Virus record (IMG/VR): IMGVR_UViG_3300020442_000769
Coordinates: 1 to 53,292 of that record
Direction: 5' to 3' (one strand)
DNA from: a virus
DNA length: 53,292 nucleotides
Part shown: positions 5,686 to 51,270 of the stretch, piece by piece
Layout of the letters: the number at the start of each line of letters is the position of its first letter
Position numbering within the stretch: position 1 is the stretch's first letter
Made by a program: the position numbers and the translations under genes
The notes under the pieces: model-generated
The model's input: only the letters and a program-made list of their open reading frames with translations
What the model was told of the DNA's origin: nothing
Databases searched by the model: none

Positions 5686-8600
5686 ATGGCTTTAACATCA
5701 CCAGGTGTACAGGTTACTGTAATAGACGAGTCGTTCTATACCCCAGCAGAACCAGGTACAGTACCAATGTTGTTTGTTGTATCTGCACAAGATAAAACAA
5801 ACGGATCAGGAACAGGAACAGCGAGTGCTACTACAAAAGCAAATGCTGGTAAACCTTTCCTAGTTACTTCACAGAGAGAATTAACTGAATTATTTGGGGA
5901 CCCAACTTTTTATGTAGATTCAAACAATAACCCATTACACGGTAATGAGTTAAATGAGTACGGATTACAAGCGGCATACTCTTATTTAGGTGCGGCAAAT
6001 AGAGCATTCGTAACTAGAGCGGATTTAAATACTTCAGAGTTAACAGCGGCTTCTACAGCCCCTGCGGCAAATCCGGCAAACGGTACATACTGGTTTGATA
6101 CAGCAAATTCAATATTTGGTATCTTTGAATGGAATGGTGCGTCAGCGACTACTACTGGTGGGCAGTCGTTTACAAACAAAATTCCTACAGTAATTACTGA
6201 TGCAACTAAAGTAGATAGCGGAGCGCCTAAGACTTCTGTTGGTGGAATTGGCGATTACGCGATTGTATCTACAACAACACTTAACAAGTTGTTTTACAAA
6301 AATAAATCAGGAACATGGGTACAAGTAGGTTCAACTGCTTGGATTAGTTCATGGTCAACTGTAACAGGAACACAAAGCAATCCTACAATAACTAACGGTG
6401 CTACAATGAGCATTAATGGTTCAGTTGTAACTTCAGGTGGTGTTGCACTATCTGATGTAGTAACAGCAATTGGATCTGCAGGTATTAGCGGAATTACTTC
6501 AGCAGTAGTTGATGGTAAATTAGAAATTTACTCAACTGGTGCAGATGTTGTGTTAGCAGATAACAGTTCAACATTGTTATCAGAAATAGGTTTAACAGCA
6601 GGTACTTACAAAGCACCTAAGTTAACTATTGCTCCACACACGCAAGTTCCAGGTTACAAGTCAACAGATACAGCACCAAGACCAACTGGTTCAATGTGGA
6701 TTAAAACTACACAACCAAACAAAGGTGCTAACTGGCAGGTTAAAGTTTGGAATGACACAACTAAATTGTGGGAAACTAAATCTGCTCCAATTTATGCAAA
6801 CAACCAAGAAGCACTATACGGTTTAGATAAAACTGGTGGTGGACTTAACTTACCAACTGGTGATGTGTTTGTAAAATATAATGTTGATGAAGCAACTGAC
6901 CCGATTGCAGATTTTAAAATCTACAGAAGAGGATCAACAGGTGCTACAACAATTAAATCAAACATTATTACTACACAATTAACAGCGGGTACTTACGCAT
7001 TTAATATAGCCGAAACTGCACCAAACTCAAGTGCATTAGGTTCAGATGTAACAGTAAGTGTAACAACAACAGCGGCAACAAGTGATGCTGATTTAGTTGC
7101 AGGTGCAATTAACTCTGCAGGCTTTACAAACGTTGTTGCAAGTGTTGATTCAAGTAACAGAATTGTAATTGAACACAATGATGGCGGTGACTTCCATATT
7201 ACTGACACAGGTGGCGTACTAGGACTAGCAGGCTTTACAGCAACTGGTTCAAATGCTACACAGTTCTTATTAGAAGCACCATCTACTCACTCACATGATT
7301 TTATTGCAAGTAACTGGGTTATTTTAACAGTAACTAACTCACCAACTGCACCAACTTCATTGACAACAGACGGTACTTTATGGTACAGTTCAATTATTGA
7401 CGAAGTAGACATTATGATCCACAATGGTACAACTTGGGTTGGATATCAAGATTCAACAAGTCCGTACTTTGCGGCGGCGGCTGGCGATAAGACAGATCCA
7501 GCAGGTCCTATTGTAAGTGCAACTGAGCCTACTAAACAATCAGATGCAACTGATCTTAAAAATGGTGACCTTTGGATTTCAACTGCTGACTTAGAAAACT
7601 ATCCTAAGATATACAAATACAATGGCGCAACTTTAAAATGGGTGCTAATTGACAATGGTGATCAAACTACTGAAGATGGTATTTTGTTTGCAGATGCTAG
7701 ATACAATACAGCAGGTGCAAATAGTGCCACAGCAGGTACAATTGAAGCACTATTAAGTTCTAACTACTTAGACCCAGATGCTCCAGATCCAGCATTATAT
7801 CCAAAAGGTATGTTGCTATGGAACTTACGTAGAAGCGGATTCAACGTAAGAAAATTTGTACGTAACTCAATTGATGTATCAGGTAACAACTTAAGATTCA
7901 ATAACAACGAATCAATGGCGGCTTACTACTCACACAGATGGGTAACTGAATCAGGCAACCAAGCAGACGGTTCAGGTTCATTTGGTAGAAAAGCACAAAG
8001 AAAAGTTGTTGTACAAGCATTACAGGCAATGGTTAACAGCAACCAAGACATTAGAGATGACAACTCAAGAATCTTTAACTTGATTGCTTGTCCAGGTTAT
8101 CCAGAACTAATCGGTGAAATGGTAACACTAAACACAGACAGAGGCCTAAGTGCATTTGTTGTAGGTGATACACCATTTAGATTAACAAGCGATGCAACTT
8201 CATTAAATGAATGGGCAACAAACGTTAAACTAGCAACTGAAGATAACGATGATGGTGCAGTTACAAGAGATGAATATGTTGGAATGTTTTATCCAAGTTT
8301 ATTCACTAGTGATAACGCAGGAAATAACGTAGTTGTTCCAGCATCACATGGTATACTTAGAACTATTGCATTAAGTGACCAAGTATCGTTTCCATGGTTT
8401 GCACCAGCAGGTACAAGACGTGGTGGCATTACAAACGCAAGTGCATCAGGATTTATTGACAGCGAAGGCGAATTTAAATCAATTGCACTTAACGAAGGTC
8501 AAAGAGATACATTGTACTCAAATGCTATAAACCCTGTAACATTCTTAAGTGGTGCAGGACTTGTAAACTTTGGTCAAAAAACTAGAGCCAAAAATGCTAG

Positions 8601-33643: not shown

Positions 33644-34954
33644 ATGTTCAAATCACTTTCAGAAAGTGTTGGTAACTTTTTTAGTTTACCTAAAGGCAGT
33701 TCAGTCAGAACAGAAGTTATGGCAGGATTGGCTACCTTTCTAACAATGGCATATATCACGGTAGTAAACCCTGCTATATTGTCAACTGAAGGTACCGGTA
33801 TGGAGTTCGGTGCCGTATTTACTGCAACCATTATTGCGGCAGTAGTAGGTACATTAATAATGGGACTTTGGGCCAAATGGCCTGTAGCACTAGCACCAGG
33901 AATGGGACTAAATGCCTTTTTTGCATTTGGTGTTGTCTTTGGTATGGGTTACACTTACCAACAGGCACTAGCGGCTGTGTTTATCGCAGGTATTGTGTTT
34001 ATTGGTTTAAGTATAACACCGGCTAGAAAATATATCATCAACAGTATTCCTAAGTCAATGAAATTAGGTGTAGGAGCAGGTATTGGTTTGTTCCTTGCTA
34101 TCATTGGTTTAAAGAATGCAGGTGTTGTTGTAGATAATCCGGCAACTTTAGTTGGCTTAGGTGACATTAGTAGTTGGCCAGTTTTATTAGCAGGACTTGG
34201 TTTTGCTATTATGGCGATTGCTGACAAACGTGGTATCCCAGGTGCAATTATTATTGGTATTCTAGCAACAAGTATTATTGCTTGGATTTTTGGAGTTTCA
34301 GAAATCGGCGGTGTAGTTGGTAGTATTCCTAACCCAAGTCATGCATTTAGTATGGACTTCAGTTTGATTGCGACAGCAGGTTTCATTGGAACTGCATTTG
34401 CATTCTTATTTGTTGACTTCTTTGATACTGCTGGAACACTAACAAGTGTTGCTAACTTAACAGGAAAAGTAAACAAGAAAGGCGAAGTCGAAGGTATCGA
34501 TAGAGCATTGTTGGCTGACTCTGTAGCAACATCAGTTGGAGCATTAGCAGGTACTAGTAACACAACTTCATACATTGAAAGTGGTGCTGGTATTAAAGAA
34601 GGTGGTAAGACAGGACTAACGGCAGTAACAGTTGCCGTATTGTTTGCACTATGTTTATTCTTTGCACCATTGGCGCAGAGCATTCCTGCATTTGCAACGG
34701 CTCCTGCACTTGTATTCATTGCAACATATTTCTTACGTAATCTAAAAGATATCGAATGGGATGATGTGAGTGAATACGCACCGGCAGTACTAGCGGCAAT
34801 CATTATGCCGTTGACTTTTAGTATTGCATACGGTATTGCACTTGGCTTTATTGCACACGTTGTAATTAAAGCAGTAAGTGGTAAACACGCAGATTTAAAT
34901 GGCGGTTCATTAGCAATCGCGGCTGTTAGTGTTTTATACTTTGCAGTAGCATAA
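33644..34954 (+). CDS. AzgA-type purine permease (NCS2 family)
   Basis: This 436-aa protein is a full-length nucleobase transporter with 12-14 predicted membrane helices. It has the family landmarks: N-terminal RTEVMAGLATFLTMAYITVV, a DFFDTAGTL helix near residue 262 and GTSNTTSYIESGAGIKEGG near residues 304-322, which forms the substrate site in AzgA (PurP) proteins of the inner membrane. These import adenine, guanine or hypoxanthine with protons. The length matches E. coli AzgA-type proteins and no frameshift is present. An AAGGAGG site precedes it and a hairpin follows, so it is the last gene of its operon. Codon use resembles its neighbours, so the acquisition may be old. Confidence 0.93.
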   Translation: MFKSLSESVGNFFSLPKGSSVRTEVMAGLATFLTMAYITVVNPAILSTEGTGMEFGAVFTATIIAAVVGTLIMGLWAKWPVALAPGMGLNAFFAFGVVFGMGYTYQQALAAVFIAGIVFIGLSITPARKYIINSIPKSMKLGVGAGIGLFLAIIGLKNAGVVVDNPATLVGLGDISSWPVLLAGLGFAIMAIADKRGIPGAIIIGILATSIIAWIFGVSEIGGVVGSIPNPSHAFSMDFSLIATAGFIGTAFAFLFVDFFDTAGTLTSVANLTGKVNKKGEVEGIDRALLADSVATSVGALAGTSNTTSYIESGAGIKEGGKTGLTAVTVAVLFALCLFFAPLAQSIPAFATAPALVFIATYFLRNLKDIEWDDVSEYAPAVLAAIIMPLTFSIAYGIALGFIAHVVIKAVSGKHADLNGGSLAIAAVSVLYFAVA

Positions 34955-36867: not shown

Positions 36868-36995
36868 TGAAAAATAAATTTATAGATCCAAAGAATAGTC
36901 ACACAGTAGGAACAAGTTGGTTGAATCTTGGTAACCATGTATTGGTTGCAGGATTTATTGCTTGTATTTTATTTGTAGTGTATGCGAGTTACTAA
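36867..36995 (+). CDS. Very small membrane protein, 42 aa
   Basis: A frame starts one base inside the previous stop (TAATG at 36865-36869) and ends exactly where the next gene starts (36995, TAATG again). The C-terminal half (HVLVAGFIACILFVVYASY) is a membrane helix. The perfect chaining of stops and starts makes it likely real. The function is unknown. Confidence 0.65.
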   Translation: MKNKFIDPKNSHTVGTSWLNLGNHVLVAGFIACILFVVYASY

Positions 36996-37561
36996 TGCCT
37001 GATATAGATATAGACTTTGCAGATAGAAGTATAGTATTAGATAAGATTAAACATCGTGTTGCTAAACTAGATACAGAAAAGAAACACAACACAGGAGTCT
37101 ATGTCACAGAAATTCCACACAATCCAGTTGATATGTTATCTACTATTGATTATGAAAAGGCTGAAGATAGAGGATACTTTAAATTAGATTTTTTAAATGT
37201 ATCATTGTACAAAGACATAAAAGATGAAGAACATCTTTTAAGATTGATGAAAAAGGAACCAATGTGGGAACTACTACAACACGAAGAATTTACGGATCAA
37301 CTATTTCATTTAAACGGACATGGGACGGTAGTGAAGAAACTTTGCCCTACTTCCGTGGAACAATTAGCATCAGTCCTTGCTATTATCCGTCCAGCGAAGA
37401 GACATCTCGTAAACAAGACTTGGAACGAGATAGAGAAGCAAGTATGGGTCAAGCCAAGTGATGGTAGTTATTATTTTAAAAAAGCACACGCCGTTGCTTA
37501 TGCTCATGCTATTGTAGTGCAAATGAATTTGTTGTGCGAAGGAGTAACCAATGACAACTGA
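36995..37561 (+). CDS. Mini DnaE-like protein (DNA polymerase III alpha core)
   Basis: The start at 36995 overlaps the previous stop. The 188-aa protein opens with MPDIDIDF, matching the catalytic PDxDxDF of DnaE (D5 and D7), and continues with HNTGVYVTEIP, RGYFKLDFLNV (third catalytic Asp, D65) and LAIIRPAKRHL. It ends in YYFKKAHAVAYAHAIVVQMN, like the DnaE FNKSHAAAYA helix. In E. coli DnaE the aspartates are 150 residues apart; here only 60, so most of the fingers and all PHP, OB and tau parts are gone. Homologues occur in marine T4-like phages. Polymerase activity is uncertain; it could be a regulator or subunit. Confidence 0.78.
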   Translation: MPDIDIDFADRSIVLDKIKHRVAKLDTEKKHNTGVYVTEIPHNPVDMLSTIDYEKAEDRGYFKLDFLNVSLYKDIKDEEHLLRLMKKEPMWELLQHEEFTDQLFHLNGHGTVVKKLCPTSVEQLASVLAIIRPAKRHLVNKTWNEIEKQVWVKPSDGSYYFKKAHAVAYAHAIVVQMNLLCEGVTNDN

Positions 37562-41763: not shown

Positions 41764-42348
41764 ATGTCAACACTAATACCTATGGTAGTTGAGCAAACTA
41801 GTAGAGGCGAAAGAGCCTATGACATTTATTCTAGATTGTTAAAAGATAGAATTATATTTGTTACAGGTCCTATTGAAGATAACATGGCGTCTAGTATTTG
41901 TGCCCAACTATTATTTTTAGAAGCAGAAGATAAAAATAAAGATATCAATATGTATATTAACTCGCCAGGTGGTATGGTAACCGCTGGGTTGGCTATGTAT
42001 GATACAATGCAATATGTTAAACCAGATGTTAAAACAGTTTGTATTGGATTGGCCGCAAGTGCAGGTTCCTTACTATTAATGGCAGGTGCAGAAGGAAAAA
42101 GAATTAGTTTACCTAACAGTAAGATTATGATTCATCAACCTAGTGCAGGCTTTAGAGGACAAGCAACTGATATCGAGATCCATGCTAAAGAAATTTTAGA
42201 AACTAAGAAAAGACTAAATGAAATTTATGCTAAACACACAGGCAAACCATATGAAGAAATTGTTGATGCTATGGAGCGAGATAATTTTATGACACCTGAA
42301 CAAGCGGCAGAGTTTGGTCTTATAGATAGTATTGTGGAGAAAAGATAA
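41764..42348 (+). CDS. clpP: ClpP protease subunit
   Basis: This 194-aa protein is a complete ClpP with an intact catalytic triad: S99 in LAASAGS, H124 in MIHQP and D173 in ERDNFMTP. It forms a 14-subunit chamber that needs an unfoldase; no ClpX or ClpA is in this window, so it would use host ClpX or ClpA. The length and motifs match cellular ClpP, not the prohead protease gp21. It could redirect host proteolysis or substitute for a decaying host subunit. The final codon overlaps the carbamoyltransferase start (TAATG). Confidence 0.94.
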
Positions 42349-43337
42349 TGGTTGTATGGGGAATGGTAGGTAACAGTCACGATGCCAGCCTAGCAGTTTT
42401 CTTAGATGGAAAACTTGTATGGGCCAGTCTTGCTAAAGACTTTAGTGATGTACCAAACGACCCTAAACATAGTTGGACACAGATAGAAGCCGCTAGGCAA
42501 AGTTTTGGTCCACCAGATAAAGTTGTTTGGTATGAAAAGCCGATACTTAAAACTTTGAGACAGTATTGGGCAGGACAAGGTTGGTTGTTAAATGAAAACA
42601 ACATTAAAAAATATCTTGCTCAATGGGATATTGATGTGCCTGTAAAATATATTCAGCATCATGAAAGTCATGCCGCATATGGTTATTACACATCAGGAAA
42701 ACTAGATGCTTACGTAATGTGTTTAGATAGCATAGGAGAGTTTGAAACATTTACTTTATGGCACGGTAAAGGTAATAAACTTAAAAAGATTTATTCACAA
42801 AGATATCCACATAGTGTTGGATTATTTTATAGTGCTATGACAATGCGTTGCGGATTTAAACCTAATGCAGAAGAATATAAAATTAGTGAACTAGCAAAAC
42901 AAATCAGTATTACAGAAAACTTACCTTTAATTAATGATGTAATCAAAACATTTATTGATGGAGATTTAAGTGGTAAGATGCCTGGCATACATTTCAAAGT
43001 TAATTTACACAAAGGTGCAAATTGGTACAAGCCTGATCTTACAACTGAAGACGATATGATTAGACTAGCCAATGCTACTCAAAGTGTTTTTGAAATGATT
43101 GTTATGTCAAATTCAAAATGGTTAAAGAACCAAAACTACTCAGCAACCAGAGACATGATAGTCACAGGTGGTTGTGCGTTAAATAGAGATGCGATGGATA
43201 GATTGCGTACTGAATGGAAAAGTGTTTGGGTACCACCAAATCCAGGAGATCCAGGAAGTTGTGTAGGTGCTGTTTTGGCAATGAACAAGAAACATATTGA
43301 CTTTAATTCTAATATATGGTATAATAATGACAAGTAA
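42348..43337 (+). CDS. Carbamoyltransferase, NodU/TobZ type, short
   Basis: This 329-aa protein has GMVGNSHDASLAVFLDGKL, the metal-binding IQHHESHAAYGYY and the ATP-binding VTGGCALN, the signature of the YrdC-like/Kae1-like core of O-carbamoyltransferases. The usual family length is about 550 aa; the C-terminal acceptor domain is missing or reduced. Phage members of this type have been linked with modification of sugars or bases. It follows ClpP and precedes gp41. Its last 40 bases hold a sigma70 promoter. Confidence 0.85.
   Translation: MVVWGMVGNSHDASLAVFLDGKLVWASLAKDFSDVPNDPKHSWTQIEAARQSFGPPDKVVWYEKPILKTLRQYWAGQGWLLNENNIKKYLAQWDIDVPVKYIQHHESHAAYGYYTSGKLDAYVMCLDSIGEFETFTLWHGKGNKLKKIYSQRYPHSVGLFYSAMTMRCGFKPNAEEYKISELAKQISITENLPLINDVIKTFIDGDLSGKMPGIHFKVNLHKGANWYKPDLTTEDDMIRLANATQSVFEMIVMSNSKWLKNQNYSATRDMIVTGGCALNRDAMDRLRTEWKSVWVPPNPGDPGSCVGAVLAMNKKHIDFNSNIWYNNDK
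43298..43326 (+). promoter_or_regulatory. Sigma70 promoter upstream of gp41
   Basis: TTGACT (43298-43303), 17 bases, TATAAT (43321-43326), overlapping the end of the carbamoyltransferase gene. The first ATG follows the -10 directly, so the transcript should start inside the 43327 gene and mainly serve gp41. Confidence 0.7.
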
Positions 43338-46136: not shown

Positions 46137-47780
46137 ATGCAAACTGACTTAGACAACATACAAAGGCTGTTAGATAGATTTAAAAGAAAAGTACCAGAAG
46201 GCACAGAATATCAAACACGTCTGACAGAAGAATTCGAACTTATACTTAATCAGAGATTCACTGATTACTTTCTACAAATATGCGATATCATTGATCTTAC
46301 CAAAGACCTTACACACATGACTCGTGGAAGTGCTGGTAGCAGTTTAATCTGTTACCTACTAGGTATTACTGATGTTGATCCAATCAAATGGAATATACCA
46401 GTAGCACGTTTTATGAATCCGTTACGTGATGACTTACCTGACGTAGACATAGACTTTGAACATTGGCGTCAGCATGATGTAATGGAACGTATATTTAAAA
46501 AGTGGCCAGGCAAGTCTGCAAGACTTTCTAACTATGTAACTTACAAAGAAAAGAGTGCAAGACGTGAAGCGGCTAAACGTTTAGGCGTTACAGGTAACTT
46601 ACCACGTAACTTTAAATACGAAAACTTAGGCATTGATGTTAAAGAAGCAAAACGTATAGAGAAAAAACTGTTAGGCAAGAAAAGAGCAATATCAAAACAT
46701 TGTGGAGGCATCGTTATGTTTACTAGGCAATTACCTAAATCATTAATATCACAAGACAATCAAATACTATTAGACAAGTATGAGATTGAAGACTTAGAAC
46801 ACTTAAAGGTTGACATATTAGCAAACAGAGGTTTGAGTCAACTGCTAGAAATAGATTCAATTACAAAATTAGAACACTATCCAGAGACAGATGAAAAGAC
46901 AAGTGCGTTACTATCACGAGGAGATGTGCTAGGTGTAACACAAGGTGAGTCGCCAGCCATGCGAAGATTATTTAGAGCGATACAACCTAAGTCAGTATAT
47001 GACTGTGTGTTTGCAACTGCAATGATACGTCCTGTTGCAATGAGTGGTAGACAAAAAGCAAGTATGTTTCAAGACTGGTCAAAAGAAGCAGTACAGGATT
47101 CAGTAGTGTTTGAAGATGATGCTATTGATATTATATCAGATATCATTGGTGTAGATATGTACGAAGCAGATATGTATCGTAGAGCATTTGCAAAAAAGAA
47201 TGACGAAAAAATATTAGAGTTTGTTGAGAAGTTAGGTAATCACCCACGTAAACAAGAAGCCATGGCCGCACTACAAGAACTATCAGGGTTTGGATTATGT
47301 AGAGCACACGCAGTAAACTTAGGTAGACTTATATGGGCATTAGCATATCATAAAGCACATAACCCAGAAGATTTCTGGAGAGCAAACCTAAAGCATTGTG
47401 AAGGATCATACAAACGTTGGGTATATCAATGTGAAGCACATCGTAGAGGTATAGATACTAAACCAGGTTGGTGGCAAAGAGGATTTATTAAAAATTGTTT
47501 TGTTAAGCAACAGTGGTTAGAACGTGTAGAGTTTGCAGGTGTGATTGCTAACGGTCGTGTGTTTAAAGGTAAGAACGGCAAGTACGTTACATTTGTTACA
47601 CTAGGTATAAATTACGGACAGTACATAGACGTAACAATACAAAAGCCATTTGGATACAGAGATGGAGATATCATACACGGCACAGGTGTAATAAGAAGTA
47701 GCAACAACAGTGACTACATACAAAGCACTGATGCAAAACTTTTTACACTTTCTGAATGGACCAATAAACGTACCGTTTGA
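46137..47780 (+). CDS. DnaE-like DNA polymerase, PHP-less (family C)
   Basis: This 547-aa protein begins in the palm of DNA polymerase III alpha: TEEFELILNQRFTDYFLQIC, then RGSAGSSLICYLLGITDVDP and LPDVDIDF with D104 and D106; the third catalytic Asp is D226 in LKVDILANRG. It continues with TQGESPAMRRLFRAIQPKS, the SGFGLCRAHAVNLGR helix and an OB-like end (AGVIANGRVFKGKNGKYVTF). The N-terminal PHP domain is absent and the C-terminal tau-binding part is not seen. T4 phages use family B gp43, so this is an extra or alternative polymerase. An AAGGGAAA site precedes the start. Confidence 0.82.
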   Translation: MQTDLDNIQRLLDRFKRKVPEGTEYQTRLTEEFELILNQRFTDYFLQICDIIDLTKDLTHMTRGSAGSSLICYLLGITDVDPIKWNIPVARFMNPLRDDLPDVDIDFEHWRQHDVMERIFKKWPGKSARLSNYVTYKEKSARREAAKRLGVTGNLPRNFKYENLGIDVKEAKRIEKKLLGKKRAISKHCGGIVMFTRQLPKSLISQDNQILLDKYEIEDLEHLKVDILANRGLSQLLEIDSITKLEHYPETDEKTSALLSRGDVLGVTQGESPAMRRLFRAIQPKSVYDCVFATAMIRPVAMSGRQKASMFQDWSKEAVQDSVVFEDDAIDIISDIIGVDMYEADMYRRAFAKKNDEKILEFVEKLGNHPRKQEAMAALQELSGFGLCRAHAVNLGRLIWALAYHKAHNPEDFWRANLKHCEGSYKRWVYQCEAHRRGIDTKPGWWQRGFIKNCFVKQQWLERVEFAGVIANGRVFKGKNGKYVTFVTLGINYGQYIDVTIQKPFGYRDGDIIHGTGVIRSSNNSDYIQSTDAKLFTLSEWTNKRTV

Positions 47781-47807: not shown

Positions 47808-48071
47808 ATGCAGAGACGTAATACTAAAAGATTCCACATAAGCGGGTCTTCCATGCCAGACGTTGAACTGGTAGCAATTATGGATAAGGCCCTAAAGAGT
47901 CCTTCGTCCTCCGTTTACAAAGTCAAAGTTGAAAACCAAAGATGGGACCGTCAGTACAAAATACTGTGGGCCGATCACATCAATACAATCGATCATTGGA
48001 AGCCGTTTGTTTACAAATACAACAAACGTTCTGATGAGTTTGTCTTCTATAAAGAAAGGAAAAAGAAATGA
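47808..48071 (+). CDS. Basic 87-aa protein ahead of the synthetase-like gene
   Basis: This protein (MQRRNTKRFHISGSSMPDVE, then SSVYKVKVENQRWDRQYKIL) is basic with a tyrosine- and tryptophan-rich middle and could bind RNA. The stop overlaps the next start by ATGA. It is not recognised, but its position ahead of a synthetase-like gene and a tRNA suggests a partner role. Confidence 0.6.
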   Translation: MQRRNTKRFHISGSSMPDVELVAIMDKALKSPSSSVYKVKVENQRWDRQYKILWADHINTIDHWKPFVYKYNKRSDEFVFYKERKKK

Positions 48072-48883
48072 CACAACTAATCGAACCCTCAAAGTTTACT
48101 TCTACCGTTGGCCTTTTAAGGTCATTTTTTTTGGATAAAGGATTTGAAGAAGTCCATACACAAAATAGATTATCTATATTAGCGGCGTGTGAAGATCCAT
48201 TTAATGTAGCAACTTACAACTACGCAGGCCAGGTATGGCCCTTGCCCCAGACAGGCCAGATGTGGCTAGAATACGAGTTACTTACACGCCCCTCTTCGAA
48301 GGGGTTTTTTTGTGTCTCCACTTCCTATAGACAAGAGCCTAATGCAATCCCAGGTAGACATGATATAATATTTCCTATGTTTGAATTTGAAATGCCAGGT
48401 AACATAGATGATCTAAAGAAGATGGAATATGAACTATGCCAACACTTAGGTTTTAAAATGCCAACTGAAAAAACTTATGCAGAGTGGCAAAAAGAATATG
48501 GAACAGATGGTGAACTAACAGCAGAGCATGAAGGTAAAATGTTTAAGGAATATGTAACAACAATGATTACAGACTTTCCGGAGTTTACAAGTCCATTCTG
48601 GAATATGAGTAGATATGAAGATGGTGTAACAAGTAAAAAGATAGATGTTATACTAGGAGGCATGGAAACAATAGGATCAGCAGAACGTTCAACAGACGTA
48701 GAACAAATGCGTGATACATTTCACACAATAACAGATGGTGCTTACAGTAACTTGCTATACGATAAGTTTGGCAAGGATAGAGTAGAAGCAGAACTAGAAG
48801 AATTTCTAGCACATGATTTCTTTCCAAGAGTAGGTGGAGGAATAGGTATGACTAGAATGATTAGTGCATTAGACACTATCTAG
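48068..48883 (+). CDS. Minimal class II (Asn/Asp-type) aminoacyl-tRNA-synthetase core
   Basis: This 271-aa protein is a bare catalytic domain. Motif 1 is FFLDKGFEEVHTQ (20-32). Motif 2 is SYRQE (86-90) with RHDIIFPMFEFEM (97-109). The AsnRS/AspRS-type GGMETIGSAER block is at 197-207, and motif 3, GGGIGMTRMI, is at 256-265 with the ATP-binding R263. The N-terminal OB anticodon-binding domain is absent. It may charge a tRNA, or act on a free amino acid like related paralogues (AsnA, AS-AR). It lies ten bases upstream of the tRNA. Two terminator-like hairpins with T-runs lie inside the frame at 48111 and 48289, where they encode ordinary residues. Confidence 0.82.
   Translation: MTQLIEPSKFTSTVGLLRSFFLDKGFEEVHTQNRLSILAACEDPFNVATYNYAGQVWPLPQTGQMWLEYELLTRPSSKGFFCVSTSYRQEPNAIPGRHDIIFPMFEFEMPGNIDDLKKMEYELCQHLGFKMPTEKTYAEWQKEYGTDGELTAEHEGKMFKEYVTTMITDFPEFTSPFWNMSRYEDGVTSKKIDVILGGMETIGSAERSTDVEQMRDTFHTITDGAYSNLLYDKFGKDRVEAELEEFLAHDFFPRVGGGIGMTRMISALDTI
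48111..48133 (+). terminator. Terminator-like hairpin inside the synthetase frame
   Basis: GGCCTT and AAGGTC form a short stem (one G-T pair, 2-base loop) followed by A and eight T. It lies within the first 20 codons. The tiny loop lowers confidence. Confidence 0.35.
48289..48311 (+). terminator. Terminator-like hairpin with T7 inside the synthetase frame
   Basis: CCCCT and AGGGG form a 5-bp stem with a CTTCGA loop, followed by seven T. It looks like a textbook intrinsic terminator but is read through as coding sequence (TRPSSKGFF). Confidence 0.5.
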
Positions 48884-48893
48884 TTGTTTGTAA

Positions 48894-48978
48894 TCTGGGG
48901 TGGTGAAATTGGTAAACACGCACAACTGTTTATTGTGTGCAGAAATGCTTGTAGGTTCGAGTCCTACCCCCAGAGCCA
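48894..48978 (+). tRNA. tRNA with GUU (Asn) anticodon on a class II body
   Basis: An 85-base cloverleaf. Acceptor TCTGGGG pairs perfectly with CCCCAGA (48894-48900/48968-48974); D-arm GTG/CAC; anticodon stem CACAA/TTGTG with loop CTGTTTA (48926-48932), anticodon GTT at 48928-48930; a 13-base variable arm forming GCA-GAAA-TGC; T-stem GTAGG/CCTAC with TTCGAGT; G73 and an encoded CCA. The D-loop (AAATTGGTAAA) and long variable arm are like bacterial tRNA-Leu, while U1-A72, G73 and GUU are like tRNA-Asn. Base 37 is U, where a purine is usual. Charging by AsnRS, SerRS (reads arm and G73) or the adjacent synthetase core are the options. Confidence 0.88.
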
Positions 48979-50998: not shown

Positions 50999-51193
50999 TT
51001 ATATCTTGTTCTTGGCTGGAACTGTAATGTGTCCGGCTACATGACCCACACGTGGACCATGCTTGAAACGATATCCTGAAGTACCGCCAGCATTGGCATC
51101 AACCGCTGGTCTTGAACCTGCAAGTAATCTTTCCTTGCGTTTCAAGATCTGTGCCTCACGGTACATCTTGTGTAAATGATCGAATCTGTTCAT
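50999..51193 (-). CDS. Basic 64-aa hypothetical
   Basis: A minus-strand frame with a very strong ribosome-binding site (AGGAGGG, 6 bases before the ATG). The product (MNRFDHLHKMYREAQILKRK, then a Gly- and Arg-rich tail) is basic and probably binds nucleic acid or is a virion peptide. It ends right at the shared terminator with the porin gene. Confidence 0.6.
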   Translation of the reverse strand: MNRFDHLHKMYREAQILKRKERLLAGSRPAVDANAGGTSGYRFKHGPRVGHVAGHITVPAKNKI

Positions 51194-51270
51194 AACACCC
51201 TCCTCTGTTAAAAGTTAGGTGCGTTCCTTCGCATTATGCTACTTCCGTCCCGATTGGGATGAACGTATTA

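Follow-up and report, generated by a model that had tools for sequence, protein, structure and literature searches.

Asparagine synthetase A (AsnA/AS-AR) and EpmA/GenX are OB-less paralogues of aminoacyl-tRNA synthetases, the latter of LysRS, and PylRS–tRNAPyl-type pairs combine a synthetase-like gene with an odd tRNA of its own. In the transamidation route of ND-AspRS and GatCAB, amidation of Asp-tRNA(Asn) is determined by U1-A72, and ND-AspRS achieves its dual recognition chiefly through the anticodon-binding domain (PMC9976931). The locus described here lies in a 53,292-nucleotide stretch of viral DNA (the whole of IMG/VR record IMGVR_UViG_3300020442_000769, hereafter the window) and consists of a gene for a small AsnRS-like enzyme and a long-arm tRNA gene directly behind it. 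The enzyme shares with AsnRS (TIGR00457) the catalytic fold (Z 27.3), the class II motifs and a QxxQxxLE pocket motif, but it is 21% identical, has no OB domain and is accompanied by a type II tRNA of its own. It resembles AsnA/AS-AR in its OB-less architecture and similar fold (3rex, Z 23.8), and differs in its AsnRS-type pocket, in its score with that family (18 bits, where the curated cut-off is 389) and in the association of its own family with a tRNA in phages and with pyr genes in bacteria. The OB-less class IIb core is likewise found in EpmA/GenX (3a5y, Z 23.9), from which the window enzyme is set apart by an aspartate/asparagine-type pocket and by a context in which no link to EF-P was seen. 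Unlike the PylRS-type pairs, the present one has the ordinary sense anticodon GUU, an OB-less class IIb core and bacterial members without the tRNA. Finally, the tRNA keeps the GUU, G73 and U1-A72 recognised in the ND-AspRS and GatCAB system, but on a tRNA-Leu-like long-arm body and with a private enzyme gene directly upstream. No paper was found in the literature that treats enzyme and tRNA as a system or that describes the family.

A minimal AsnRS-like enzyme

The window is a fragment of a T4-like phage, with genes for terminase, sheath, a RecA-like protein, helicase, ClpP and other proteins. An open reading frame with an ATG start at 48,068–48,883 (+) encodes 271 residues, and its single Pfam match, PF00152 (the class II D/K/N core; E=1.7e-14), covers residues 14–268 and so leaves no room for an OB domain. 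Correspondingly, an N-terminal OB anticodon-binding domain was absent both from the Pfam search and from the AlphaFold model, which was computed with 36 relatives (pLDDT 92.5) and consists of the core only. The class II motifs 1–3 and the catalytic residues are present. On the same strand, the amino-acid pocket motif QTGQMWLE occupies codons 61–68 (48,248–48,271), motif 2 runs from R88 to E108 (48,329–48,391; R88..E90..R97-H98..E106-F-E108), the GGMETIGSAER block with E200 and R207 spans residues 197–207 (48,656–48,688), and motif 3, GGGIGMTR, extends from G256 to R263 (48,833–48,856). Across 105 members of the family, Q61, Q64, E68, R88, E90, H98, E106, E108, E200, G203, E206, R207 and R263 are invariant; of the 22 key residues compared, 18 show no variation in this set, those at 42, 97, 256 and 258 are retained in 103 or 104, and 20 are found in at least 104.

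The enzyme belongs to phrog_29758 (E=4e-132), a PHROG family of unknown function, and reached no curated NCBIfam family, the best being aspartate--tRNA(Asn) ligase at 26 bits against a cut-off of 353. The AsnRS family asnS (TIGR00457, cut-off 342.6 bits) gave no match to it at E≤1, and the best asnS score among 20 members of the enzyme family was E=4.6e-8. The nearest solved folds to the predicted structure were AsnRS catalytic cores (human 8h53, 247 residues, rmsd 2.2 Å); AspRS, EpmA and the archaeal asparagine synthetase A ranked next. By alignment, on which the pocket assignment rests, QTGQMWLE corresponds to QSSQLYLE of AsnRS, unlike QSPQLYKQ of AspRS. As far as sequence can tell, the window enzyme is a minimal AsnRS-like core that lost, or never had, an anticodon-binding domain. 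The preliminary description had proposed such a class II core on the basis of motifs 1–3 and the GGMETIGSAER block, and this assignment holds; neither a loss of essential residues nor clear orthology to asparagine synthetase A (PRK06462) was found. Copies in the cyanophages P-SSM2 and P-SSM7 are named 'tRNA ligase' in GenBank, a term that can only mean amino acid–tRNA ligase here, and a reading as RNA ligase was rejected, as the window enzyme gave PF00152 only and no RNA ligase domain.

An 87-residue open reading frame at 47,808–48,071 overlaps the enzyme start codon (ATGA), in agreement with the earlier description. The further suggestion that its product supplies RNA binding as part of the system was not borne out: the protein has no Pfam or NCBIfam match, it was found upstream in only three related fetched loci besides the window's record, and in P-SSM7 a tRNA gene takes its place. 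Since it is not conserved, it was left out of the proposed system, and of the three-gene co-occurrence that had been envisaged only the enzyme and tRNA remain. Elsewhere in the window, matches to the NTPase and finger domains of Pol III alpha at 46,137–47,780 and similar motifs seen by eye at 36,962–37,561 (PDIDIDF) suggest split or paralogous pieces of that polymerase. A glutamine riboswitch (RF01739, 55.5 bits, E=1.4e-9) is located at 51,218–51,267 (−), upstream of a short minus-strand open reading frame at 50,999–51,193. A xanthine/uracil permease family protein (PF00860, E=7e-51) is encoded at 33,644–34,954, and the N-terminus of a carbamoyltransferase (PF02543, E=4.6e-26), a carbamoyl-phosphate-using enzyme, at 42,348–43,337; carbamoyltransferases are also tabulated for some of the same phages in a 2010 cyanophage comparison (PMC3037559).

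The long-arm tRNA and its pairing with the enzyme in phages

Ten bases after the enzyme stop codon follows a type II tRNA with a tRNA-Leu-like body and an encoded CCA (48,894–48,978, +). Both ARAGORN and Rfam (RF00005, 52.1 bits) call a tRNA with a GTT anticodon, ending at 48,978 and 48,975 respectively, and the RNA model R1 scores it at 103.5 bits; the best bacterial matches to this model, in eight genomes, were tRNA-Leu at 60–79 bits. The anticodon occupies 48,928–48,930 and is followed by U at position 37 (48,931). The variable arm TGCAGAAATGCTT at 48,938–48,950 is 13 nt long and can pair as a GCA/TGC stem; in relatives it measures 10–38 nt as parsed, unlike the short class I variable loop of a decoding tRNA-Asn. 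The position and the long variable arm of this tRNA are thus as first reported. Stem pairing is retained in 99.5% of cells over 48 distinct sequences, with changes on both sides in 18 of 23 pairs, and none of 500 shuffled controls paired as well; the tRNA is, judging from this pattern, under selection.

Comparison of 61 distinct long-arm tRNAs revealed GUU, U1-A72 and G73 in every one. Position 37, which in a decoding tRNA-Asn is a purine (normally A/t6A), was a pyrimidine in 51 (U in 47, C in 4) and A in only 10, while control tRNAs from the same phage loci had a purine there in 45 of 46 cases (p ~6e-19 for the difference, indicative only, as the sequences are related). U33 was present in all 46 controls but in 57 of the 61, the other four having C or G, and the 32–38 pair types (CA/TC) keep the loop geometry. 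With the identity elements kept and a pyrimidine at 37, the tRNA looks chargeable and poorly built for decoding. We infer that GUU has been retained because it is seen by an anticodon-reading charging enzyme, the decoding-relevant flanks having been relaxed. The same features suggest that decoding is not the main use of the tRNA and that its charging falls to host enzymes which read the anticodon; the OB-less enzyme itself would hardly be expected to do so.

The association of the two genes was evident from both directions. In 81 of 87 phage loci obtained via the protein, the long-arm tRNA lies directly 3' of the enzyme gene. In the 85 tRNA-bearing loci measured, its median distance from the stop codon was 7 nt, and 79 of these tRNAs were within 40 nt. 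Conversely, a DNA pattern derived from the tRNA alone gave 75 matches with enough upstream DNA, and all 75 had the enzyme directly upstream on the same strand (69–90% identical). Many of the tRNAs were miscalled or missed by ARAGORN because their variable regions reach 25–38 nt. In the fetched loci, no other tRNA took the place directly behind the enzyme gene. The pairing is consequently real and reciprocal, in keeping with the dedicated partnership suggested in the preliminary description, and the enzyme has at least 595 confirmed relatives in IMG/VR.

Among cultured cyanophages, the pair occurs in P-SSM2, P-SSM5 and P-SSM7, annotated as 'tRNA ligase' and 'tRNA-Asn', and in P-SSM2 and P-SSM7 the cassette sits in different genome neighbourhoods. 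The 2010 comparison of 16 cyanophages gives the name 'tRNA ligase' and nothing more on the gene (PMC3037559). In NC_006883.2 (P-SSM2), the annotated tRNA-Asn PSSM2_199 at 164,094–164,179 appears to be annotated about 2 kb from its true place, since the actual tRNA sequence is at 162,083–162,171, directly after PSSM2_198. In the enzyme tree, the tRNA-linked marine phage enzymes form one supported group, and a second tRNA-bearing phage pair, L095 and L145, falls apart from it. The L145 tRNA, which was missed by the scripted count above and found on separate inspection, is a GUU tRNA of the same odd type at 6,077–6,170; 231 nt separate it from the enzyme gene upstream, and its acceptor end is mismatched (TCTGGGG/CCCCACC). 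In another locus (L093), the two acceptor halves of the odd tRNA, TCCGGGGT and CCCCCGGAGCCA, abut right behind the enzyme gene with the middle gone, as a remnant or through assembly collapse.

Relatives without the tRNA and their pyrimidine genes

Scanning 84,980 genomes identified 125 relatives, of which 80 were retrieved for study. Most of these were chromosomal copies, about 50–63% identical, and a few were on phage-like contigs binned with their hosts. The chromosomal carriers include Patescibacteria, Bacteroidota (Aureispira and others), Pasteurella atlantica (complete chromosome), Midichloriaceae, Myxococcota and DPANN bins. No long-arm GUU tRNA adjoined the chromosomal copies, and in a search of eight bacterial carrier genomes with model R1 the 30 loci fetched were all tRNA-Leu but for one tRNA-Tyr. 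Nor was the tRNA found in the huge phages LR756501 and LR756508, whose enzymes are 47–53% identical; distant viral scans with these copies returned two and zero loci. The catalytic residues are alike in the phage and bacterial members among the 105 sequences, and the changes that distinguish tRNA-linked phage enzymes from bacterial ones are scattered, with none at the catalytic positions checked. The bacterial members thus show that the catalytic core does not require the long-arm tRNA, so the latter would have been added or kept by the phages. The bacterial homologues were also considered as replacements for AsnRS, an idea that was rejected, as a full AsnRS scored above the cut-off in 26 of the 49 carriers.

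The neighbourhoods of the bacterial copies contain pyrimidine genes, with pyrF (OMP decarboxylase) 17, pyrE (orotate phosphoribosyltransferase) 12 and pyrD (dihydroorotate dehydrogenase) 9 times among 64 neighbour proteins that were hand-picked as informative. In P. atlantica the family gene lies between pyrD and pyrF; many Patescibacterial copies adjoin dusB/dnaX, not pyr genes. Aspartate transcarbamylase (PyrB) exceeded the cut-off in only 2 of 27 carriers, genomes chosen with a bias towards a pyr context, compared with 14 of 14 controls. Weak PyrB matches in two carriers (G004 and G012) were read as ornithine transcarbamylases from their neighbours, which are carAB/arg genes or a gene resembling carbamate kinase. 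CarB was similarly depleted (4 of 29 carriers, 14 of 14 controls). For dihydroorotase (PyrC), two of the 27 carriers scored above the cut-off and 12 gave no match to either type, among them P. atlantica with its complete chromosome. These absence counts have to be read with the nature of the carrier genomes in mind, which are mostly MAGs with completeness mostly unstated. When 119 genomes from one order were sampled without such bias, PyrB was absent in 7 of 7 carriers versus 11 of 112 non-carriers (Fisher p=6e-7, with kinship ignored and the seven carriers not independent). AsnB was present in 18 of 29 carriers, which suggests that the family is not simply filling an asparagine gap.

In two of the bacterial loci, an ArgH-like lyase gene lies just upstream of the family gene, preceded by a PRK06886 amidohydrolase in one (L102, 2,634–4,931) and by a pyrF-like open reading frame, recognised by eye, in the other (L137, 3,844–4,935). 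These lyases and adjoining genes possibly belong, with the family gene, to an alternative pyrimidine module. From the gene context and the missing enzymes, we infer that the bacterial members may provide a way towards dihydroorotate in which neither carbamoyl phosphate nor aspartate transcarbamylase is needed. No description of a PyrB bypass was found in the literature.

Possible roles of the enzyme and its tRNA

The explanation that we favour, tentatively and at less than even confidence, is that the tRNA serves as a carrier or acceptor outside normal decoding, together with an AsnRS-derived adenylate-forming enzyme from an alternative route toward dihydroorotate. The bacterial family would replace CarAB, PyrB and in part PyrC, probably through ATP-dependent activation of an aspartate/asparagine-type substrate, and would deliver dihydroorotate to PyrD, PyrE and PyrF; a candidate reaction is Asn + CO2 + ATP → dihydroorotate. 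As the catalytic residues are common to phage and bacterial members, activation probably proceeds in the phage enzyme by the same chemistry. The phage tRNA keeps the elements recognised by AspRS/AsnRS and GatCAB (GUU, G73, U1-A72) and could be loaded with Asn, or Asp, by host enzymes or by the phage enzyme itself, while its body and long arm would, as the preliminary description suspected, mark it for the OB-less enzyme, which could then use it as a private aminoacyl carrier or acceptor. The more specific proposition, that an aminoacyl-tRNA synthetase-derived enzyme makes dihydroorotate from asparagine or an Asn-type substrate without carbamoyl phosphate or aspartate transcarbamylase and that marine phages draw the amino acid from a dedicated, decoding-impaired Asn-tRNA, is rather unlikely in our estimation. 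An AsnRS-like binding mode would activate the alpha-carboxylate, whereas dihydroorotate synthesis needs this group free. A flipped ligand binding, as in AsnA, must therefore be assumed for the candidate reaction. Several observations also speak against the favoured reading. No recognised pyr gene was found beside the cassette in the phage loci examined, and PyrB is presumably available in the hosts of the phages. Why a tRNA should be needed is not explained by the metabolic role, since the bacterial members work without it; moreover, A37 in 10 and U33 in 57 of the 61 tRNAs leave room for decoding. The Patescibacterial neighbourhoods, the completeness of the MAGs and the non-independence of the carriers weigh in the same direction.

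Ranked next, and a serious rival, is a private translation pair, in which the minimal AsnRS would charge its own tRNA with Asn via the acceptor end and variable arm, for decoding of AAU/AAC in phage mRNAs when host tRNA-Asn is limiting. Such a role, which we consider a distinct possibility if short of probable, would account for the reciprocal pairing (81/87 and 75/75), the AsnRS-type pocket with intact motifs, the invariant GUU, U1-A72 and G73 and the preserved loop geometry, and Asn makes up 5.4% of codons in the 17 window open reading frames counted. It fits poorly with the pyrimidine at position 37 (51/61) and the exceptions to U33 (4/61). Huge phages, moreover, carry the enzyme but not the tRNA, and the catalytic residues do not differ in the tRNA-less bacterial members, which often coexist with a full AsnRS. 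The private aminoacylation system anticipated in the preliminary description is accordingly upheld in so far as a dedicated pair with an AsnRS-like core exists, but weakened as the basic function of the family by the bacterial relatives without the tRNA, their pyr association and the loss of CarB and PyrB.

An alternative metabolic role would be asparagine supply, with an AsnA-like synthetase (Asp + NH3 + ATP) and an extra tRNA-Asn raising Asn-tRNA for the phage. The OB-less architecture and the closeness of archaeal asparagine synthetase A among solved folds are compatible with this; the AsnRS-like pocket and the AsnB already present in bacterial carriers speak against it, and PyrB/CarB loss, the odd tRNA body and position 37 would be left unexplained. 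We regard it as improbable. In the proxy host Synechococcus elongatus, looked at for the idea that hosts without free Asn are the reason for the tRNA, AsnB is absent and AsnRS present. Phage tRNAs with anticodon-loop changes have been proposed to escape tRNA-cutting defences (PMC10264068), and the varying loop flanks around a fixed GUU would suit a tRNA-Asn made immune to host anticodon nucleases by its altered position 37 and kept charged by the enzyme. As the tRNA-Leu body, the 10–38-nt arm, the constant OB-less companion and the bacterial pyr context find no explanation there, we regard it as quite improbable. That the tRNA is only an mRNA 3' end or a recombination site behind an unrelated enzyme appears highly improbable: the tight spacing and the co-occurrence of tRNA genes with mobile, non-syntenic cyanophage genome regions (PMC3037559) agree with such structural hitchhiking, but a specificity of 75/75 for one odd tRNA type, the invariant identity elements, the strong stem covariation and the lack of substitution by other tRNAs in the fetched loci all oppose it.

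The novelty of the locus lies in the fact that no described system was found that matches the pair and its family; the mechanism is only proposed. An OB-less AsnRS-like enzyme with a private long-arm tRNA has no described counterpart that we found in the literature, and it is carried by many marine phage contigs. As a synthetase/tRNA-like pair, it is also a natural candidate for orthogonality. Provided that the link seen in bacteria is upheld, the family is a candidate for a missing step in genomes that have PyrD, PyrE and PyrF but neither CarAB nor PyrB and, if the more specific proposition on dihydroorotate is true, its members would represent an undescribed route of de novo pyrimidine synthesis in diverse bacteria.
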